A model generated the notes under the pieces. It was not told the origin of the DNA, did not search any database, and was given only the letters and a program-made list of their open reading frames with translations. Shown piece by piece: positions 1,866 through 51,701 of a stretch of DNA of 64,000 nt (its first letter is position 1; every line of letters begins with the position of its first letter). The stretch is taken from the NCBI RefSeq assembly GCF_037031285.1, contig NZ_JAYEZO010000001.1, positions 310,001 to 374,000 of the forward strand, written 5' to 3'. A program made the translations under genes and the position numbers. This stretch comes from Halobellus sp. LT62. Lineage in GTDB: Archaea > Halobacteriota > Halobacteria > Halobacteriales > Haloferacaceae.

Positions 1866-3197
1866 ATGACCACCGATGCGGTGCCCTCGGACCTACCGGG
1901 CGTCGTGCTGGCGGGGACGGCCTCCGGTGTCGGCAAGACCGTCGCGACGCTGGCGGTCTGTCGGGCGCTCGAACGCGAAGGAAAGACCCCCGTCGCCGCG
2001 AAGGCCGGCCCCGACTTCATCGATCCGAGCCACCACGCCGCGGTGCTCGGTCGCCCCTCGCGGACCCTCGACCCGTGGCTCGCGGGCGATTCCGGGATCA
2101 GGCGAGCGTACGCGCTCGGTGCCGACGAGGGCGACGTCTGCGTCGTCGAGGGGATGATGGGCCTCTACGACGGCGACGTGAGCACCGCCGCGGTCGCCGA
2201 GGCGCTCGACCTCCCGGTGATCCTCGTCGCCGACGCCGCCGGCGGGATGGAGAGCGTCGCCGCAACCGCGCTCGGCTTCCAGCAGTACGCCGACCGCGCG
2301 GGCTACGACATCGACGTCGTCGGCCTCCTCGCCGCGCGCGCTCACGGCGGCCGTCACGAACAGGGGATCCGCGACGCCGTCGAGGGGCTCCGGTACGTCG
2401 GTCGCACCCCCTCGCTCGACGGCTTGGAGATCCCCGATCGACACCTCGGCCTCCACTTCGGCGACGAGTCGCCCGTCGACGACGAGGCGTTGGACTCGGC
2501 GGCACGCGGGATCGACGCTGACGCGCTCGTCGACCTCGCGCGTCGACCGGAACTCGACACGCCGCCGTCGCTCCGCGCGGCAGACGAGACCGGCGCGCGG
2601 GTCGGCCTCGCGACCGACGACGCCTTCCGTTTCGTCTACCCGAGTACGCGGCAGCGACTCGCCGCCCGCGGAACTGTCGAGCCGTTTTCGCCCGTCGCGG
2701 GCGACCCCGTTCCCGACTGCGACGTCGTCTACCTCCCCGGCGGTTACCCGGAGCGACATGCGGCCGCGCTCGCGGCGTCGGACACGCTGGACGAACTGGC
2801 CGACCTCGCCGCCGACGGGCTGCCGGTGTTCGGCGAGTGCGGCGGCCTGATGGCGCTCGGCGAGTCGCTGACGACCGCTGACGGCGTCGCACACGATATG
2901 GCGGGCGTGCTCCCGGTGGAGACGCGGATGACGGACGGTCCCGTCGCCTTGGATCACGTGGGCGTCCGCGCCCGCGAGGACTGTCTCATCGCACCCGCCG
3001 GCGAGACGCGTCGCGGGCACGAGTTCCACTACTCGTCGGCGACGGCCGCTCCGGACGCCCGGTTCGCCTTCGAGATGGTGCGCGGCGCGGGCGTCGACGG
3101 CGCGAACGACGGACTCCGAGAGTACAACACGCTCGCGACGTACGGGCATTTCCACGTCGGCTCGGGCGCGTTCGACTATCTCTTGGAGACGGTCTGA
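1866..3197 (+). CDS. cbiA: Cobyrinic acid a,c-diamide synthase (CbiA/CobB)
   Basis: Glutamine-dependent amidation of the a and c side chains of the corrin ring in adenosylcobalamin synthesis. The N-terminal ATP-binding domain has the P-loop GTASGVGKT (residues 17-25) and the downstream VEGMMGLYDG motif. The C-terminal class I glutaminase domain has its nucleophile in FGECGGLM (Cys325) and a His in the HFHVGSG region near the end. At 443 residues the length is normal for the family. It stands alone; the other cobalamin genes of the window (cobO, cbiP) lie 12 kb downstream on the same strand. Direct repeats just upstream may control it. Confidence 0.95.
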   Translation: MTTDAVPSDLPGVVLAGTASGVGKTVATLAVCRALEREGKTPVAAKAGPDFIDPSHHAAVLGRPSRTLDPWLAGDSGIRRAYALGADEGDVCVVEGMMGLYDGDVSTAAVAEALDLPVILVADAAGGMESVAATALGFQQYADRAGYDIDVVGLLAARAHGGRHEQGIRDAVEGLRYVGRTPSLDGLEIPDRHLGLHFGDESPVDDEALDSAARGIDADALVDLARRPELDTPPSLRAADETGARVGLATDDAFRFVYPSTRQRLAARGTVEPFSPVAGDPVPDCDVVYLPGGYPERHAAALAASDTLDELADLAADGLPVFGECGGLMALGESLTTADGVAHDMAGVLPVETRMTDGPVALDHVGVRAREDCLIAPAGETRRGHEFHYSSATAAPDARFAFEMVRGAGVDGANDGLREYNTLATYGHFHVGSGAFDYLLETV

Positions 3198-3286
3198 GCT
3201 ATTTCTTGGAGACCGTCTGAGCTGTCGCTGCAGTCGAGCACACCGGGGACGTCGCCGGCGCTCCGCTTCGAGCCCATCTCGCAGGG

Positions 3287-3293
3287 TTTATGG
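3287..3293 (+). promoter_or_regulatory. TATA box of the L37Ae-rpoP operon
   Basis: tttatgg centred about 30 bp before ATG 3320, the spacing of a leaderless haloarchaeal transcript. This supports ATG 3320 over the upstream in-frame ATG at 3290. Confidence 0.6.
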
Positions 3294-3319
3294 CTCCGCC
3301 GGGGGTATCACGCGATACT

Positions 3320-3592
3320 ATGGCCGAACAGAAGGCACGAACGACCGGGAGCGCCGGTCGATTCGGTGCGCGATACGGACGCGTCGCCCGTCGACGCGTG
3401 AAGGAAATCGAAGAGGAGATGCGGAACGCGACGGTCGACGAGGACAGCGTCACCCGTCTCGAGCCCGGCATCTGGCAGAACGACGAGACCGGCGAGATCT
3501 TCACCGGCGGCACCTACCGGCCGCAGACGCCCGGTGGCAAGCAGGTCAGCCGCTCGATCCGCGCGGCGCTCTCCGGCGACAACGAGGAGTGA
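3320..3592 (+). CDS. rpl37ae: Large-subunit ribosomal protein L37Ae (eL43), cysteine-free variant
   Basis: Structural protein of the large ribosomal subunit. The N-terminus [17 protein letters not shown], the central GIWQ motif and [12 protein letters not shown] match archaeal L37Ae. Family members normally carry a CxxC...CxxC zinc ribbon flanking GIWQ; here both pairs are gone (DEDS before it, NDETGE after it) and the 90-residue protein contains no cysteine. It is first gene of a conserved archaeal operon with rpoP, pcc1 and prefoldin beta. The start is set by the TATA box at 3287 and by family length. Confidence 0.9.
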
Positions 3593-3665
3593 TCGCCGTC
3601 CGCGTCGTCGACGCGGTCGCGCCCACACGAAAGAACCAACATCCCCACACCCCACCTACGTACCA

Positions 3666-3800
3666 ATGAGCTACAAGTGTTCGCGGTGCAAGCGAGACGT
3701 CGAACTGGACGAGTACGGCGGCGTCCGCTGCCCGTACTGCGGTCACCGAATCCTGTTGAAAGAGCGCGCGCCGGACGTCAAGGAAGTCCCGGTCGAATAA
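3666..3800 (+). CDS. rpoP: DNA-directed RNA polymerase subunit P (Rpb12-like)
   Basis: Small zinc-binding subunit that stabilises archaeal RNA polymerase. The 44-residue protein holds CSRC at residues 4-7 and CPYC about 16 residues later, the expected four-cysteine zinc ribbon, followed by the basic GHRILLKER motif. It lies 73 bp after the L37Ae gene and 16 bp before pcc1, an order conserved across archaea. Confidence 0.95.
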
Positions 3801-3816
3801 CCCGTTCTCGAAGCCG

Positions 3817-4107
3817 ATGGCGAGCCGAGAGACGCCGGCCGTCGAAGCCGCACACGCGGCCGAATTCGACTTTTCCTACCCCGAAGAGCGGACCGCTCGC
3901 ACGATTTTCGAGAGCGTTCGCGTCGAGATCGACGAGATCGCCGACGAGCGATCGCGAGCCGACGTCACCCGCGAGGGGCGCGTCGTGACGGTGACCGTGG
4001 AGGCCGCCGACCTCGTCGCGCTCCGCGCGGCGCAGAACACGTGGATCCGACTCGTCGAAATCGCCGAAGACGTCGCAGCGGGCGGGCAGCACCTCGTGGA
4101 CGCCTGA
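3817..4107 (+). CDS. pcc1: KEOPS complex subunit Pcc1
   Basis: Dimerising subunit of the KEOPS complex, which makes the t6A modification of ANN-decoding tRNAs with Kae1, Bud32 and Cgi121. The 96-residue protein has the short alpha/beta Pcc1 fold signature ([14 protein letters not shown]...[17 protein letters not shown]) and fits the family length. It lies in the conserved operon between rpoP and prefoldin beta, which strongly supports the call. Confidence 0.9.
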
Positions 4108-4163
4108 CAGGCGCTGATCGGAGAATACGGGCCTTTTTCAGTCCGGATCCCGTCGCCACGGGT

Positions 4164-4550
4164 ATGCAGGGCAATCTGCCGCCGGAAGCACAGGAGAAAC
4201 TCGAGGAACTACAGGATCTGCAGGAGACGGCTCAGAAGGTGGCCGCCCAGAAGGAGCAGGCCGAGTCGACGCTGAACGAGTCGAAGACGGCGCTCGATGC
4301 CCTCGACGACATCGACGAGGACACGACGATGTACCGCGAGGTCGGCGAACTGCTCGTTGAGGCCGAGTACGACGAGGCCCACGACGAGCTCTCCGAGAAG
4401 GTCGACACCCTCGAAATCCGCGTCGAGCAGCTGCAAAAGCAGGAACAGCGCGTCCAAGAGCAGTTCGAGAGCCTGCAGGAAGAGCTCCAGCAGATGCTGC
4501 AGGGCGGCGCGGGCGGCGGTCCGATGGGCCCCGGCGGCGCTGGCGCATAA
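4164..4550 (+). CDS. pfdB: Prefoldin subunit beta
   Basis: Chaperone subunit; four beta subunits join two alpha subunits in a jellyfish-shaped hexamer that passes unfolded proteins to the thermosome. The 128-residue protein is two long coiled-coil helices (about 7-50 and 75-115) joined by the beta-hairpin region [15 protein letters not shown], ending in a flexible Gly/Met-rich tail that is longer than in many homologues. The start is ATG 4164; an upstream in-frame ATG at 4041 overlaps pcc1 and gives a non-homologous extension. Confidence 0.95.
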
Positions 4551-6805: not shown

Positions 6806-8788
6806 CTACGCGAACAGGAATATCAGCACGCTCACGGCGACGGCTGCGAGGATGATCGAGGCGGCGAAGACGCCGCCCATCGCGACGACCGCGTTCGCGT
6901 GGCTGGCCAGCGTCTCCGTCCGATCGTTGCCGAAGACAGTGACCTCCGCGCGCTCGACCGCGACGCCCGCCTCGACGGGCTCCAGATCCGCGCGGGCCTC
7001 GTCGGTCAGGTCGCAAACGAGCGTTCGGAGCTCGTCCCAGTCGATGGCCGCGCCGACCTGATTGTCGGCGTCGACGGTGTTGACGATGTGCGTGTCGGTC
7101 GTCATCACCTCGGCCTCGTCGACGAGGCCGCCGGTTGCTCGGGACTCTTTCGGCGTCCCGCCGTCGCCGGATTCCATCCGGCTGCTCGCGGGACTTCGTC
7201 CCGCCCCGTCGACGAGCGCGTCGACGAGTTCGCCGCGCAGACCGGGTTCCATGTTATTGCCATCGATCAGCACGTACGCCGTCTCTTGGCCGTCGACCGC
7301 CGTGACGGCGACGCGGATGCCGAGCGGACCGATACCGTCGGCCGGGTCCCACGGCGTTTCGTCCCACGCGACGCCGAGTTCGAGTTCGTCGCTGCCGGCG
7401 GTTGCGAGCCGGCGTCCCGAGTTGCCGGCCGCGCCGATCATATCGAACGCGCGCTTCGAACCGGGCGTGACGTGGCCCAGATCCGGGCCGCTCAGCCCGT
7501 CGTTGGAGTTGTGCGCGTCGACGAGGAGCACGTCGTCGAGGCCGCTGGTTCGGGCCTCCGCTGCGGCTGAGAGCCCGACGCCGTACTCGACGTCGTCGGC
7601 GAAGCCGGGCGCGAACGTCGAGACAAGGAGCGCGTCGTCGCCGAAGCGCTGTCCGAGCATCGAGGCCTCGCCGGAGTCCACGCGGACGCTCCGGGTCGCC
7701 TCCGCGTCGTAGATGATTCGATCGGCAGCGCTGCGAGCGGCGTCGAGAATCGTGTCGACCTCGCGCTCGGTCACGAGGTTGAAGTCGTGGCCGGCGGTGG
7801 CGTGCGGCGGGAAGACGAGCCCCGAACAGTCCGTGGCGACGCGCTCGGGGAAGTTGCCGCCGCCGATTTCCCCCATCGGCCCGGGGTGGATCATCGGCAG
7901 GACGAAGCGGGCCTTCTCTTCGCCCTCCATCCTCCGGAACGAGAGCACCGAGACGGGGGCGATGGCCTCCTCGCCGAGCTGCTGGAAGAACTCCTCCAAC
8001 TCGCGGGAGCCCTCGGCGACGTGCCCGATGAACCCCCGGAGAAAATCGAGCATCGAGACCCCGAGACTCCGCCGCCACGGTCTGTCGACGGCGACGATGA
8101 AGACGTACACCGCGAGCGCGTAGATGCCGCAGGTGACCGCGAGCAGCGCGAAGTGCTCGGCGGTGATCGCCGAGAGCTCTGCGGGGGCGTCGGCGGAGCG
8201 GGCGAGATAGGGAGTCAAATATGCGTCGACCACGGTCCCGCCGACTTCCAGAAATCGGAGGGTGCCGCTGTAGACGAACAGGAGAACCGCCGCGGCGAGC
8301 GTCTGGAGGCTCGCGGGGATCGACGCGACGAGCACCGACGAGCGCGAGACGGCCATAATCACGAGCAATCGGAAGGCGAAGATCGAGGCGAGGCCGACGA
8401 CGAGCGCGTCGTAGACGAACTGCTGTTCGAGCGACGTGAACACCGAGACGATCGCCGCGAGAGTGACGATCGTCACGAGGATGATCTCCGAGAGCAAGGC
8501 GAGAAGCGACGATCGGTTCGGGGTGAGCCTCCCTCCGACGAACCGGTCGACGCCGGTCGTCCCGAAGGCGGCGACGACGGTCGGAATCCCGATGAAGAAG
8601 ATGCCCTCCCACGCGTCCCGGCCGAAGAAGAACAGCCCGCGCCACGTCCGGGCGTACGCGCCGGAATCGAACGCTGCGACGCCTGCAACGGCCGCGATCA
8701 GGAGGGCGAACGCGAGGCTGGAGTACCAACTCGGCGCGCGGAAGATGAATCGAGAGAGGCTCGCGAGGTCGCTTTGTGTGGATGTCAT
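6806..8788 (-). CDS. DUF2070 family membrane protein
   Basis: Archaeal membrane protein of unknown function, 660 residues. The N-terminal 300 residues hold about seven hydrophobic spans, followed by a large soluble domain with LPMIHPGPMGEIGGGNFPER and VLLVDAHNSND, motifs rich in possible metal ligands (His, Asp, Asn). A final hydrophobic span closes the C-terminus. The start is ATG 8788 (MTSTQSDL); a longer frame upstream overlaps guaAA and is Arg-rich. It is codirectional with guaAA, 44 bp away. Confidence 0.88.
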   Translation of the reverse strand: MTSTQSDLASLSRFIFRAPSWYSSLAFALLIAAVAGVAAFDSGAYARTWRGLFFFGRDAWEGIFFIGIPTVVAAFGTTGVDRFVGGRLTPNRSSLLALLSEIILVTIVTLAAIVSVFTSLEQQFVYDALVVGLASIFAFRLLVIMAVSRSSVLVASIPASLQTLAAAVLLFVYSGTLRFLEVGGTVVDAYLTPYLARSADAPAELSAITAEHFALLAVTCGIYALAVYVFIVAVDRPWRRSLGVSMLDFLRGFIGHVAEGSRELEEFFQQLGEEAIAPVSVLSFRRMEGEEKARFVLPMIHPGPMGEIGGGNFPERVATDCSGLVFPPHATAGHDFNLVTEREVDTILDAARSAADRIIYDAEATRSVRVDSGEASMLGQRFGDDALLVSTFAPGFADDVEYGVGLSAAAEARTSGLDDVLLVDAHNSNDGLSGPDLGHVTPGSKRAFDMIGAAGNSGRRLATAGSDELELGVAWDETPWDPADGIGPLGIRVAVTAVDGQETAYVLIDGNNMEPGLRGELVDALVDGAGRSPASSRMESGDGGTPKESRATGGLVDEAEVMTTDTHIVNTVDADNQVGAAIDWDELRTLVCDLTDEARADLEPVEAGVAVERAEVTVFGNDRTETLASHANAVVAMGGVFAASIILAAVAVSVLIFLFA

Positions 8789-8832
8789 CGGTGAAGAGAT
8801 TCGAACCGCGGGCCGGACGGGGATCGGGAACG

Positions 8833-42179: not shown

Positions 42180-43256
42180 TCAGTCGAGACAGAGCGCCTC
42201 ACAGAGCGCGTCGGTCCCCGACTCTCGACGGATCCGACGCTGGCGCACGGATCCGCTTTCGCGTTCGAGCAGTCGCTCCAGTGCGTCGATTCCGAGGCGA
42301 TCGGTCTCGGCTTCGACGAACGCTTCGAGCGAGACCGTGTCCGCGGCGTCCCGGGCGATGAAGTCCGCGTCTCGACCGTAGCGAACCGCGTGCCACTTGT
42401 TCGCGTCGAGGATCTCCCGCCGGACGGCGGTGCCGGATTCGCCGTCCTCGTAGCGTGCCGCGAGATCCTCGACGAGCGTGTAGACGTATTCGACGAACGC
42501 GACGGTGGCTTCGGGGTCCGTCTGGGTGTCCGGCGTCCTGACTTCGACGGTCCCGTGGCCGGTGTGCGGTCGAACGTCATACCAGAGCTCGCCGCGGTCC
42601 TCGATCGAGCCGAGTTCGACCATCTGCCGCTCGAACCGGCGGTACGCCTCGAAGTCCTCGAAGCGAGTCGGCATCCCCGTGTTCGGCAACGCCTCGAAGA
42701 TCTTCGCGCGGGCGGAGGCGAGGCCGGTGTCGAAGTCGTACCAGTACGGCGAGTTCGCCGACAGCGCGAGCACCGGCGGGAGATACCAGCGCAGCTCGTT
42801 GGCGATCCACGTCGCCTTGTCGGCGTCGTCGACGCCGACGTGGACGTGCAGCCCGGAGGTGGTGTTTCGGTGCTGTGGGTACTGGATCCTGTCCAGTTGA
42901 GACTGGTACCGCGGCTTCGTCGCGTGGTCGAGTTCGCGCCACTTCGCCGTCGGGTGGAGCCCCGCCGCGGCGATGCGGTAGCCGTGCTCGGCGGCGTGAT
43001 CGACGAGCGCCTCGCGAACGGTCCGAACGGTCGGCTCGACCTCCGAGAGATCCCCGATCAGTGGCGTCTGCGTCTCGATCGTGAACTGAAACAGCTCGTG
43101 GTCGATCCGGTCTTCGAGCACTCCCGACGGTGGGTGATCGTAGACGAGATCCGCGATACCCGACGTCGGGCGGCCTCGCTCGTCGACGATGTAGAACTCC
43201 TCTTCGACGCCGAGCGTGCCCATTTGATCGAAGGCGTCCGCCGACCCTAGTTCCAT
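42180..43256 (-). CDS. gshA: Glutamate--cysteine ligase (haloarchaeal GshA)
   Basis: Makes gamma-glutamylcysteine, the principal low-molecular thiol of haloarchaea. The 358-residue carboxylate-amine ligase has [16 protein letters not shown] at the N-terminus, [16 protein letters not shown] in the centre and [15 protein letters not shown] later, the core of the GCS2 family. A minus-strand TATA box (43281-43289) stands 25-33 bp before ATG 43256. No glutathione synthetase gene is nearby, as expected. Confidence 0.93.
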
Positions 43257-45882: not shown

Positions 45883-47034
45883 TCACTCGTGGCTCACGCA
45901 CTTCTGTCGCTCCGGTGTGAGAAGCAGGTAGGTCACAAGGACGGAGACCCCGGCGACGGCGAGGATGAACCCGCCCGTAGTGGGAAAGAGACCGTACCGT
46001 TCGACGATCCCGGAGACGTCGGTGACGACGATCACCTGCAGCGCGCCGACCACGACGCCGATGATACCGAAGACGGATCTGGCGATCTGTTCTTGGAACA
46101 CGTATCCCATATCGCGTTCGACGCGGACCGCGTCGTGGACGCTGATGTCGATCCGGTCTCGTTCGGTCGCGGGCATCTTGATCGTGTTCGGTGGACAGTC
46201 GCCGTCGAGGTCCGTCGTGAGACACTGGGCTTTCGTCCGCTTCCCGCGCCACGCGAGAACGACGTTGTCGCCGGGATCGATCCCCAGAAACGCCATCATA
46301 TCCTCGGTCATCCGAACGACGTTCCGGTACTCGTCTTGATCCGGTCCGAGCCGAACGTTGAACGGCATCTCCCTGCTGTCGACGAAGAACTTCTGTATCC
46401 GTCGCGACAGCGACCGATCCGCGTCGGCGGCGACGCCCGTGTTCCGAACGCCCACTCCGTCTCCGGGCTCGATGTCGATGGCCTGTCGGGACCGGACGTC
46501 GACCCTGACGAGATCGGGATCGCCGTGCGGCGCTTCGACGGTCACGTCGATCCGACCGCCCGTGACCGGATTGAACAACTCCACGACGGACCCGGGGACG
46601 ATCCCGAGTTGGTCCATCCGACGATCCGAAATATGACAGACTCGATAGTCGATCTCGTCGTCGTACGTTCGGCGAGCGGTCCCGGAGAACTGCGTCACGG
46701 ACGCGTCGACGCAAACGTCGACGACGAGTTCCCCGTCGTCGATCCGGCCGACGGAGCTGACCGCGTTGTAGAGGTTCGTCCGCAGCGCTCCGACGTAGTG
46801 ATCGGCTTCGATGAGGGAAGGGGAAGGTTCGAGTTCGACCGCGACGACCCGGATTCCGCTGCCGGTACGCTCCGGGTCTCGGAGACGGACGTACCCGTAG
46901 TTCGAGAGCCCCAGCTCGTCGAACGCCGCCGGCGGCAGAAAGAGGGCGTTCCGGAACTGATCGGCGGTGTCGGTGAACAGACCAACGTCCAGATCGTAAG
47001 GCCGCCGACAGCGGACGGTCACCGAAGTATCCAT
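45883..47034 (-). CDS. Membrane-anchored protein with tandem double-psi beta-barrel-like domains
   Basis: 383-residue protein of unusual build. Residues 235-306 (VVRMTEDMMAFLGIDPGDNV ... IDISVHDAVRVERD) match the pattern of the CDC48/VAT N-terminal double-psi barrel: a variable strand, LGI-PGD turn, a Pro-containing loop and a closing D-V-V strand. Residues 127-197 (DRRMDQLGIVPGSVVELFNP ... EPGDGVGVRN) are a second copy, and 25-112 (PAAFDELGLSNYGYVRLRDP) may be a third. Two hydrophobic helices follow (about 319-338 and 352-371). No AAA ATPase domain is attached. Function is unknown. Confidence 0.75.
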   Translation of the reverse strand: MDTSVTVRCRRPYDLDVGLFTDTADQFRNALFLPPAAFDELGLSNYGYVRLRDPERTGSGIRVVAVELEPSPSLIEADHYVGALRTNLYNAVSSVGRIDDGELVVDVCVDASVTQFSGTARRTYDDEIDYRVCHISDRRMDQLGIVPGSVVELFNPVTGGRIDVTVEAPHGDPDLVRVDVRSRQAIDIEPGDGVGVRNTGVAADADRSLSRRIQKFFVDSREMPFNVRLGPDQDEYRNVVRMTEDMMAFLGIDPGDNVVLAWRGKRTKAQCLTTDLDGDCPPNTIKMPATERDRIDISVHDAVRVERDMGYVFQEQIARSVFGIIGVVVGALQVIVVTDVSGIVERYGLFPTTGGFILAVAGVSVLVTYLLLTPERQKCVSHE

Positions 47035-47203: not shown

Positions 47204-47689
47204 ATGAGTACGCTTTCGTATCGGCCAGCAGCGGCGTCAGATATCCCGCGTTTGGTCGAGATACATCGTCGAGCGGTCCGCGAAATCGGCTCGGGCTACT
47301 ACACGAATCGACAGATCAAAGCGTGGACCGCCGAAGCCCGAGAGGACGCGTACCCGATCGCCGATAGCGAGGTGGTACTCGTCGCCGAGCGTGACGGGAC
47401 GGTCGTCGGATTCGGGCAACTCACCGTCGAGCGGCCGGAGATTGCGAAATTGTTCGTCGATCCGGACTACGCCGGTGACGGGGTCGGGGCGTCGTTGCTG
47501 GCCGAATTAGAACGCGTTGCAGTCGAACGTGGCGTCTCCGAGCTGTTTCTCGACTCGTCGTTGAACGCGGCGAACTTCTATCACCGAAACGGGTACACGT
47601 ACGGCGAGATGCTGAACAAGTATCTGCCCGTCGACGGCGGAGAGGTGGTTTTTCCCGCACTTCGTATGGGGAAGAGCCTTACGCGCTGA
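47204..47689 (+). CDS. GNAT family N-acetyltransferase
   Basis: 161-residue acyl-CoA-dependent acetyltransferase. LSYRPAAASDIPRLVEIHRR opens the fold; VVLVAERDGTVVGFGQL is the central sheet; AKLFVDPDYAGDGVGASLLA carries the CoA pyrophosphate loop (YAGDGVG, corresponding to QxxGxG); FLDSSLNAANFYHRNGYTYG is the C-terminal motif B. Substrate unknown. A TATA-like ttatatcc lies near 47101. Confidence 0.88.
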   Translation: MSTLSYRPAAASDIPRLVEIHRRAVREIGSGYYTNRQIKAWTAEAREDAYPIADSEVVLVAERDGTVVGFGQLTVERPEIAKLFVDPDYAGDGVGASLLAELERVAVERGVSELFLDSSLNAANFYHRNGYTYGEMLNKYLPVDGGEVVFPALRMGKSLTR

Positions 47690-50555: not shown

Positions 50556-51701
50556 ATGAGTGATACACGAACCCGAGAACGAACCGACGAGCGCAGGAGG
50601 TTCCGGGCCGGCGGCCGATTCGCCGACGACCGGAGCGAGACAGTACGCGAAACGGAGGCAGCGGACGAACAGACCACGGACGAACAGACCACGGACGAAC
50701 AGACCACGGACGAACAGACCACGGACGAACAGACCACGGACGAACAGACCACGGACGAACAGACCACGGACGAACAGACCACGGACGAACGGGAAGACGA
50801 GCGGTTCGTCTGTCCGGAGTGCGGTGGCAACCTCGTCACCGACGAGGCACACGGAGAGACCGTGTGTACCGACTGCGGCCTCGTCGTCGACGAAGATTCG
50901 ATCGACCGCGGGCCGGAGTGGCGCGCCTTCGATAGCGCCGAGCGGGACAAGAAGTCGCGCGTCGGCGCGCCGACGACGAACCTGATGCACGACAAGGGCC
51001 TGTCGACGAATATCGGCTGGCAGAACAAAGACGCCTACGGGAAGGCGCTCTCGTCGCGCCAGCGCGAGCAGATGCAGCGGCTGCGCACGTGGAACGAGCG
51101 CTTCCGCACCCGAGACTCGAAGGAGCGCAACCTCAAGCAGGCGCTCGGCGAGATCGATCGAATGGCCTCCGCGCTCGGACTCCCGGAGAACGTTCGGGAG
51201 ACCGCCTCGGTCATCTACCGCCGCGCGCTCAGCGAGGACCTCCTCCCCGGCCGCTCCATCGAGGGCGTCGCGACCGCGGCGCTGTACGCGGCCGCCCGGC
51301 AGGCCGGGACGCCGCGCTCGCTCGACGAGATCGAGCGCGTCTCCCGCGTCGACAAGATGGAACTGACGCGGACGTACCGCTACGTCGTCCGCGAGCTCAA
51401 GCTGGAAGTCGAGCCCGCGGACCCCGAGCAGTACGTCCCCCGCTTCGCCTCCGAGCTCGGCCTCTCCGACGAGGCCGAACGACAGGCGCGTCAGCTCCTC
51501 CGCAACGCGAAGCAGGCGGCGATCCACTCCGGAAAATCGCCAGTCGGCCTCGCCGCCGCGGCGGTGTACGCGGCCGCGCTGCTCACCAACGAGAAGGTGA
51601 CCCAGAGCGAAGTGAGCGAGGTCGCCGACGTCTCTGAGGTCACGATCCGCAACCGATACAAGGAACTGCTCGAAGCCGACGACGCCGGAATGATCGCGTA
51701 A
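50556..51701 (+). CDS. tfb: Transcription initiation factor TFB
   Basis: Archaeal TFIIB, bridging TBP-promoter complexes and RNA polymerase. The 381-residue protein has an N-terminal disordered region with eight copies of DEQTT, a zinc ribbon (FVCPECGGNL ... CTDCGLVVDE), the B-finger/linker (GPEWRAFDSAERDKKSRVGAP) and two cyclin repeats (about 175-270 and 275-370). The C-terminal cyclin ends with the HTH SEVADVSEVTIRNRYKELLE. Haloarchaea have multiple TFBs; this one differs in its repeat-bearing N-terminus. Confidence 0.95.
   Translation: MSDTRTRERTDERRRFRAGGRFADDRSETVRETEAADEQTTDEQTTDEQTTDEQTTDEQTTDEQTTDEQTTDEQTTDEREDERFVCPECGGNLVTDEAHGETVCTDCGLVVDEDSIDRGPEWRAFDSAERDKKSRVGAPTTNLMHDKGLSTNIGWQNKDAYGKALSSRQREQMQRLRTWNERFRTRDSKERNLKQALGEIDRMASALGLPENVRETASVIYRRALSEDLLPGRSIEGVATAALYAAARQAGTPRSLDEIERVSRVDKMELTRTYRYVVRELKLEVEPADPEQYVPRFASELGLSDEAERQARQLLRNAKQAAIHSGKSPVGLAAAAVYAAALLTNEKVTQSEVSEVADVSEVTIRNRYKELLEADDAGMIA
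50664..50783 (+). repeat. Eight perfect 15-bp tandem repeats within tfb
   Basis: The unit gacgaacagaccacg (Asp-Glu-Gln-Thr-Thr) occurs eight times without change. The repeat is in frame, so copy-number changes would lengthen or shorten the protein by 5 residues without breaking it. Confidence 0.95.

Follow-up and report, generated by a model that had tools for sequence, protein, structure and literature searches.

The window analyzed here is a 64,000-nucleotide stretch of the genome of Halobellus sp. LT62 (contig NZ_JAYEZO010000001.1, positions 310,001 to 374,000 of the forward strand). Its minus strand carries a gene for a 383-residue protein, P0001, in which CDC48-N-like double-psi barrels are followed by two hydrophobic helices, and a GNAT acetyltransferase gene lies divergently beside it. 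The features of the locus are as follows:

45883..47034, minus strand: P0001, gene of the membrane-anchored barrel protein, 383 aa (open reading frame with ATG start; Pfam CDC48_N, E=6.4e-18)
46684..47034, minus strand: residues 1-117, degenerate first barrel, probable but not established (hhalign 2.6%)
46417..46683, minus strand: residues 118-206, second CDC48-N-like barrel (hhalign 77.8%, E 2.2e-6)
46099..46401, minus strand: residues 212-312, third and best conserved double-psi barrel (Pfam, hhalign 98.0%, PDB profiles)
46021..46077, minus strand: residues 320-338, first predicted membrane helix (hydropathy 2.37 over 19 residues)
45919..45975, minus strand: residues 354-372, second predicted membrane helix (hydropathy 2.25), followed by the conserved tail ERQKC
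47204..47689, plus strand: GNAT acetyltransferase gene, divergent from the barrel gene (Pfam Acetyltransf_1, E=2.8e-16)

A preliminary description of this DNA had placed the gene at 45883-47034 on the minus strand, and the coordinates, strand, ATG start and length of 383 residues are correct; the turns that it quoted are also present in the translation (LGLSNYG, LGIVPGS and LGIDPGD in repeats 1 to 3, respectively). Pfam matched CDC48_N to two stretches of P0001, the best being residues 231-307 (E=6.4e-18), and no other family in the Pfam scan reached its cut-off. NCBIfam returned fragments of its CDC48 model (E=6.1e-5), with the best stretch corresponding to the N-terminal part of that model. 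Neither Pfam nor NCBIfam gave an AAA family match in the 383-residue protein, and the reading frame ends past the two membrane helices. The architecture of CDC48-N-like double-psi barrels, then two predicted membrane helices and no ATPase is thus confirmed by sequence.

The individual barrels were compared with five CDC48 N-domains using hhalign, with profiles built from sub-alignments of 15 relatives. Barrel 3 (residues 212-312) matched with a probability of 98.0% (E 1.5e-12) and, by this profile comparison, is certain to be CDC48-N-like. Barrel 2 (residues 118-206) is clearly of the same kind by profile, both against the CDC48 N-domains (77.8%, E 2.2e-6) and against barrel 3 (77.9%, E 2.2e-6). 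The assignment is marginal for barrel 1 (residues 1-117), which reached 2.6% and a score of 15.1, compared with 11.0 for the best of 30 column shuffles. The preliminary description had counted two clear barrels and one possible barrel; this was right, the possible one being the first repeat. In Pfam, CDC48_N was matched at E<=0.01 in all 15 family members of the main type, and the PDB matches found by sequence profile were double-psi barrels of CDC48/VAT type, some of them designed and some natural.

Structure prediction had been suggested as a check on the fold. A model of barrel 3 alone, based on a four-row alignment, had low confidence (pLDDT 63.3), and the full-length protein predicted without an alignment reached a pLDDT of 40.7. 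When the barrel 3 model was submitted to Foldseek, p97/CDC48 N-domain chains made up 32 of the 50 matches listed; the best E of any match was 0.046, and none of the 50 reached 0.001. VIA-align placed the barrels of RNA helicases (Sen1, Upf1) at the top, at Z values of up to 7.7 that may reflect a common arrangement only, and CDC48 chains were absent among its 50 matches listed. The proposed fold was not refuted by prediction and Foldseek, although the structural side of the check is weak (pLDDT 63.3, best E 0.046), and the double-psi barrel is supported mainly by sequence.

P0001 resembles the Nn barrel of CDC48, VAT and p97 in the sequence profiles of barrels 2 and 3 and in its PDB profile matches. 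It differs from these proteins in lacking both the Nc half and the AAA rings, and its family has two to three tandem barrels together with a C-terminal membrane hairpin. Pfam gave no match to CDC48_2, the Nc half, in P0001 at E<=10, and the chain leaves no space for this half, as barrels 2 and 3 follow one another directly and only about 10 residues separate barrel 3 from helix 1. In p97/CDC48, adaptors bind in the groove formed where the Nn barrel meets the Nc half; a reading of P0001 as a CDC48 adaptor is therefore weakened by the absence of Nc. Formylmethanofuran dehydrogenase subunit D, aspartate decarboxylase and AbrB/MazE proteins contain related barrels and gave weak profile matches, those to MazE/AbrB in some members of the barrel family. 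Their matches are weaker than that to CDC48_N in the individually tabulated three-barrel members, however, and no resemblance to their operons was seen. The part of PMC5070193 that was available names no freestanding or haloarchaeal N-domain, and in the open-licence literature, to the extent of the text available, no description of this architecture, or of the enzyme discussed below in haloarchaea or other archaea, is apparent.

Freestanding barrels with two membrane helices and no AAA module are conserved in the relatives. Barrel 3 and the helices are kept in all 15 relatives with three barrels (type A, n=15), of which one, at L039, is truncated at its N-terminus, and conserved positions among the 15 members concentrate in barrel 3 and in the stretch just before the membrane. 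In the same members, basic residues precede helix 1 and follow helix 2; of the 12 positions next to helix 1 on its C-terminal side, none or one is basic. From this charge pattern, the barrels and the C-terminal tail are predicted to be cytosolic. In most members of the 15-member alignment, the last residues of the tail are R-Q-K-C or a near variant of it. A cysteine follows the last membrane helix in 13 of the 15 (RQKC and variants); its codon in the window lies at 45898-45900. A role as an envelope sensor, one of two functions put forward in the preliminary description, is unlikely given the predicted cytosolic barrels and a fused homologue, described below, that has the barrels and a GGCT-type enzyme on the same side.

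The barrel gene is under purifying selection. Between the window gene and the Halobellus captivus copy, dN is 0.079, dS is 0.434 and dN/dS is 0.18, falling to 0.14 in barrel 3. The family is rare and patchy. A profile search of the order, in which up to three candidates per genome were scored, found the gene at E<=1e-12 in 11 genomes out of 392, spread over four families. Among the genomes of 60 relatives, nine matched: the window genome, five with full-length genes (G003, G046, G007, G009 and, twice, G011) and three with short matches inside CDC48-length frames. In 392 genomes drawn from across the phylum there were 52 matches at E<=1e-6, most of them true CDC48 as judged by their frames of ~730-1100 residues, and this draw added barrel genes in G519 and G499 and a second, chromosomal copy in Halobacterium hubeiense (G126). 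A contig scan with P0001 outside the searched phylum sets returned only H. captivus, and viral contigs searched by barrel or GGCT pattern and phage records yielded no relatives. Two copies lie on large plasmids, of Halobacterium hubeiense and of Haloarcula marina (G269), and in both records the barrel gene is annotated as hypothetical.

A recurrent neighbor of the barrel gene is a gene for a GGCT-like enzyme. We examined 14 stretches around relatives, in which genes were called with our own scoring script. On a count that starts from the barrel gene, the GGCT-like gene is directly adjacent in 6 of the 11 genomes of the order and is not adjacent in the other five. The pairs overlap in G007, G046, G073 and G307 and converge in G077 and G278. 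At L028, L029, L031, L032, L033 and L034, the barrel gene lies 3' of an enzyme gene of ~228 codons, which it overlaps by 19 or 22 bases, with the starts of overlapping genes placed by the gene caller; the N-terminus of the enzyme there reads IF(G/A)YGSL or LFAYGSL. At two other loci, the enzyme gene, with YGSL at L036 and IGSL at L037, converges on the barrel gene from 69 and 14 bases away, respectively. In G011 (L030), the two are fused into one protein of 653 residues in the order enzyme, barrels, anchor. Two further barrel genes, at L088 and L089, have no GGCT neighbor, and a gene for a 273-residue protein upstream of the former has no NCBIfam match.

When the search was started from the enzyme, GGCT-like genes were found in 14 of 392 genomes of the order, six of them already known and eight new. 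A barrel-plus-helix protein adjoins the enzyme in eight of the 14, namely the six and G147 and G235, which have a shorter barrel type; the remaining six GGCT-like genes have no barrel neighbor. The shorter barrel-plus-helix proteins (L063 and L067) came from the enzyme search and are excluded from the barrel-side count. They have no Pfam CDC48_N match alone, and their tie to the family is the A3 profile only (E=1.4e-8 and 2.3e-8); the gene is 355 bases from the enzyme gene at L063 and overlaps it by 8 bases at L067. The arrangement recurs beyond the order: in G499, from another family of the phylum, a GGCT-like gene at 2434-2973 (E=4.3e-48) and a barrel gene at 2975-4309 (E=4.3e-16) are 1 bp apart. 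Overlap, near-contact, convergence or fusion thus occurs in both of the clades into which midpoint rooting divides the barrel tree. Mapping the presence of the enzyme onto this tree took four changes, compared with a mean of 6.5 in shuffled labels, and 13 of 500 shuffles were as low. Barrel distances and enzyme distances, taken pairwise, are correlated (0.95 for 12 pairs, 0.81 for nine less redundant pairs), and none of 2000 permutations was as high. As linked genes travel together, this correlation supports a unit of inheritance, not contact. At L065, L068 and L070, in three genomes of one genus, the barrel-less GGCT-like genes adjoin a similar gene, which at L065 encodes a DUF7095 protein.

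As for the partner itself, Pfam gave no useful match for single GGCT-like members, and no member passed a Pfam GGCT model; against the NCBIfam GGCT model, an exception-level model with a cut-off of 480 bits, the G499 enzyme scored far below at 31 bits (E=1.7e-7). With a 14-row profile of the family, the best PDB chain was the AIG2-like 2jqv (E=0.0019), with its Glu-Tyr region aligned, and hhalign matched haloarchaeal GGACT proteins with a probability of 61.6% (E 7.7e-5, 35 columns). A 9-row profile gave chance-level matches only in the PDB; in hhalign it reached 43.5% against GGACT and 0.2% against a GNAT control. Gly-Ser-Leu, an Arg, and a Glu with the Tyr that follows it are present in all 14 members, and the Tyr of YGSL is present in 13. 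The YGSL motif and a catalytic Glu are hallmarks of the GGCT fold according to PMC7022552. From these sequence features, we conclude that the partner is probably a GGCT-fold enzyme with an intact-looking active site. Its YGSL signature, Tyr and catalytic-type Glu are features that it has in common with GGCT, GGACT, ChaC and plant AIG2 proteins. Unlike them, it lies below Pfam detection and is longer in the main clade; its gene is paired with or fused to that of a membrane barrel protein, and the window genome is without the enzyme. In Firmicutes, an Aig2-family cyclotransferase is found beside a carboxylate-amine ligase family (PMC2588565); this shows Aig2-type enzymes traveling with gamma-glutamyl metabolism, though in a different neighborhood.

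In the window lineage, a GNAT gene takes the neighboring position. A genome-wide search with the 14-row profile found no GGCT-like enzyme in seven of the nine genomes tested (the window genome, G003, G126, G151, G269, G271 and G519), and found it in the other two (G009 and G011), where it was already known. Within the genus, the window GNAT is present at E<=1e-15 in two of 17 genomes, which are the two with a window-type barrel (G000 and G003). In another GGCT-less branch, a different GNAT gene converges on the barrel gene at all three loci (L038, L039 and L040). GNAT genes number 14-22 in each of five genomes in which they were counted, and on that basis GNAT adjacency in two separate GGCT-less branches is unlikely by chance, though not conclusive. 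The GNAT may be a partner or client of the window barrel protein. At L038 (7197-9708) and L040 (7830-9916), the barrel gene comes after lysine/diaminopimelate genes (lysA-like and dapF-like by reading), with the GNAT gene converging. At L035, neither GGCT nor GNAT is adjacent and the upstream neighbor is a DUF4145 protein. This locus (L035/L097), on the 350-kb Halobacterium hubeiense plasmid pSTJ001, carries the barrel that, Halobellus aside, stands closest to the window type in the tree; besides the adjoining DUF4145 gene, phospholipase D family and HNH endonuclease genes are nearby.

We hypothesize, tentatively and with a probability of about 0.45, that P0001 is a cytosol-facing membrane scaffold whose barrel stack docks or regulates a small modifying enzyme, GGCT-like in much of the family, and is not the substrate arm of an unfoldase. 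The C-terminal helix hairpin would hold the barrel stack at the membrane on its cytosolic side, and the stack would in turn hold or gate the enzyme there. The fusion puts enzyme, barrels and anchor in one chain, which is why we read the barrels as an enzyme-holding cytosolic face. A homologue of the GGCT fold (AIG2/ChaC-like) in this position would place cleavage of gamma-glutamyl or similar amide bonds at the membrane. The window lineage may have lost such an enzyme or never had one, with the scaffold kept under selection beside the GNAT as a possible client. Against the scaffold stand the six of 14 enzyme genes that are barrel-less, the failure of every enzyme member to pass a Pfam GGCT model, the profile-only tie of the shorter barrel proteins at L063 and L067, the size and commonness of the GNAT superfamily, and the fact that linkage and co-inheritance are no proof of contact. 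A further point against it is that the window genome has no GGCT-like gene, and the scaffold therefore cannot need a GGCT-like enzyme. The N-barrel of CDC48 has been studied so far as the substrate arm of an unfoldase; if the scaffold reading is true, N-barrels stacked at a membrane and tied to a GGCT-type enzyme would mean that the module has an independent life, and the pair would offer a simple two-gene system for learning what such barrels bind. Proteins annotated as hypothetical in two copies would also gain a first function that can be tested.

Other explanations were weighed against the scaffold. A stand-alone structural or envelope role for P0001, without any enzyme partner and with the GGCT and GNAT genes adjoining it through shared insertion places, is unlikely: lineages without a partner do exist and genomic locations differ between genera, but shared insertion does not readily account for several gene arrangements, a fusion and a further instance of the pair beyond the order. 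It is a little less likely again that P0001 serves the CDC48/SAMP/proteasome system as a receptor or decoy at the membrane. On this reading, the N-barrels would share the binding partners of CDC48 and bring ubiquitin-like-tagged or damaged proteins to the membrane, and the GGCT-like enzyme would trim isopeptide-like tags. CDC48 N-domains are the closest sequence kin of barrel 3, and three other CDC48_N proteins score above the cut-off in the window genome, in frames of 752-841 codons. CDC48, SAMPs and proteasomes also act together in Haloferax, according to PMC4895103. The protein lacks the Nc half and with it an adaptor cleft, however, and no CDC48, SAMP, JAMM or proteasome gene was noticed by eye among the listed neighbors. 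To our knowledge, CDC48 is expected in all these archaea, so that co-occurrence with it is uninformative, whereas the barrel gene is in 11 of 392 genomes. The recruitment of substrates or cofactors of CDC48, the other function suggested in the preliminary description, is accordingly unsupported, as the protein has Nn only and its genomic partners are GGCT-like or GNAT genes and not an unfoldase or adaptor.

A defense or addiction module, with the GNAT or GGCT as toxin and an AbrB/MazE-like barrel protein as membrane-held antitoxin, is quite improbable. It would agree with the patchy spread, the large-plasmid copies in Halobacterium hubeiense and Haloarcula marina, and the weak MazE/AbrB matches of some members. 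Such matches, however, are shared by cradle-loop barrels by virtue of their fold; PADLOC, run on seven proteins, returned nothing for the barrel or GGCT-like proteins and one weak GNAT match (E=0.0067); selection maintains barrel genes where the GGCT enzyme is missing; and the phage and viral collections yielded no member of the family. Most speculative, and very improbable, is a motor-less archaeal membrane receptor of the CDC48 type from which a gamma-glutamyl (isopeptide-cleaving) cyclotransferase would receive tagged proteins; this would amount to a membrane station for de-conjugation or repair, with the N-barrel as a general, ATPase-independent adaptor.

The surroundings of the gene gave some further observations. 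A link to glutathione-type metabolism through the glutamate-cysteine ligase gene of the window (42180-43256) was considered and not counted, as this gene is near the barrel gene only at L041 (H. captivus) among 26 loci; the ligase-fibrillarin-Nop5 neighborhood is one that we take to be ancestral in haloarchaea. At L041, a partial second nop5 copy (8563-8832; 75.6% identity over 90 residues to the Nop5 of the window) adjoins the barrel gene, and the full copy is ~6 kb away, the partial one being a trace of rearrangement at the site. Elsewhere in the window, a TFB-like transcription factor gene (by reading; 50556-51701, plus strand) contains a perfect in-frame tandem repeat at 50662-50790 (15 bases, 8.6 copies, 100% match) that encodes TDEQT units in the N-terminal part of the protein.
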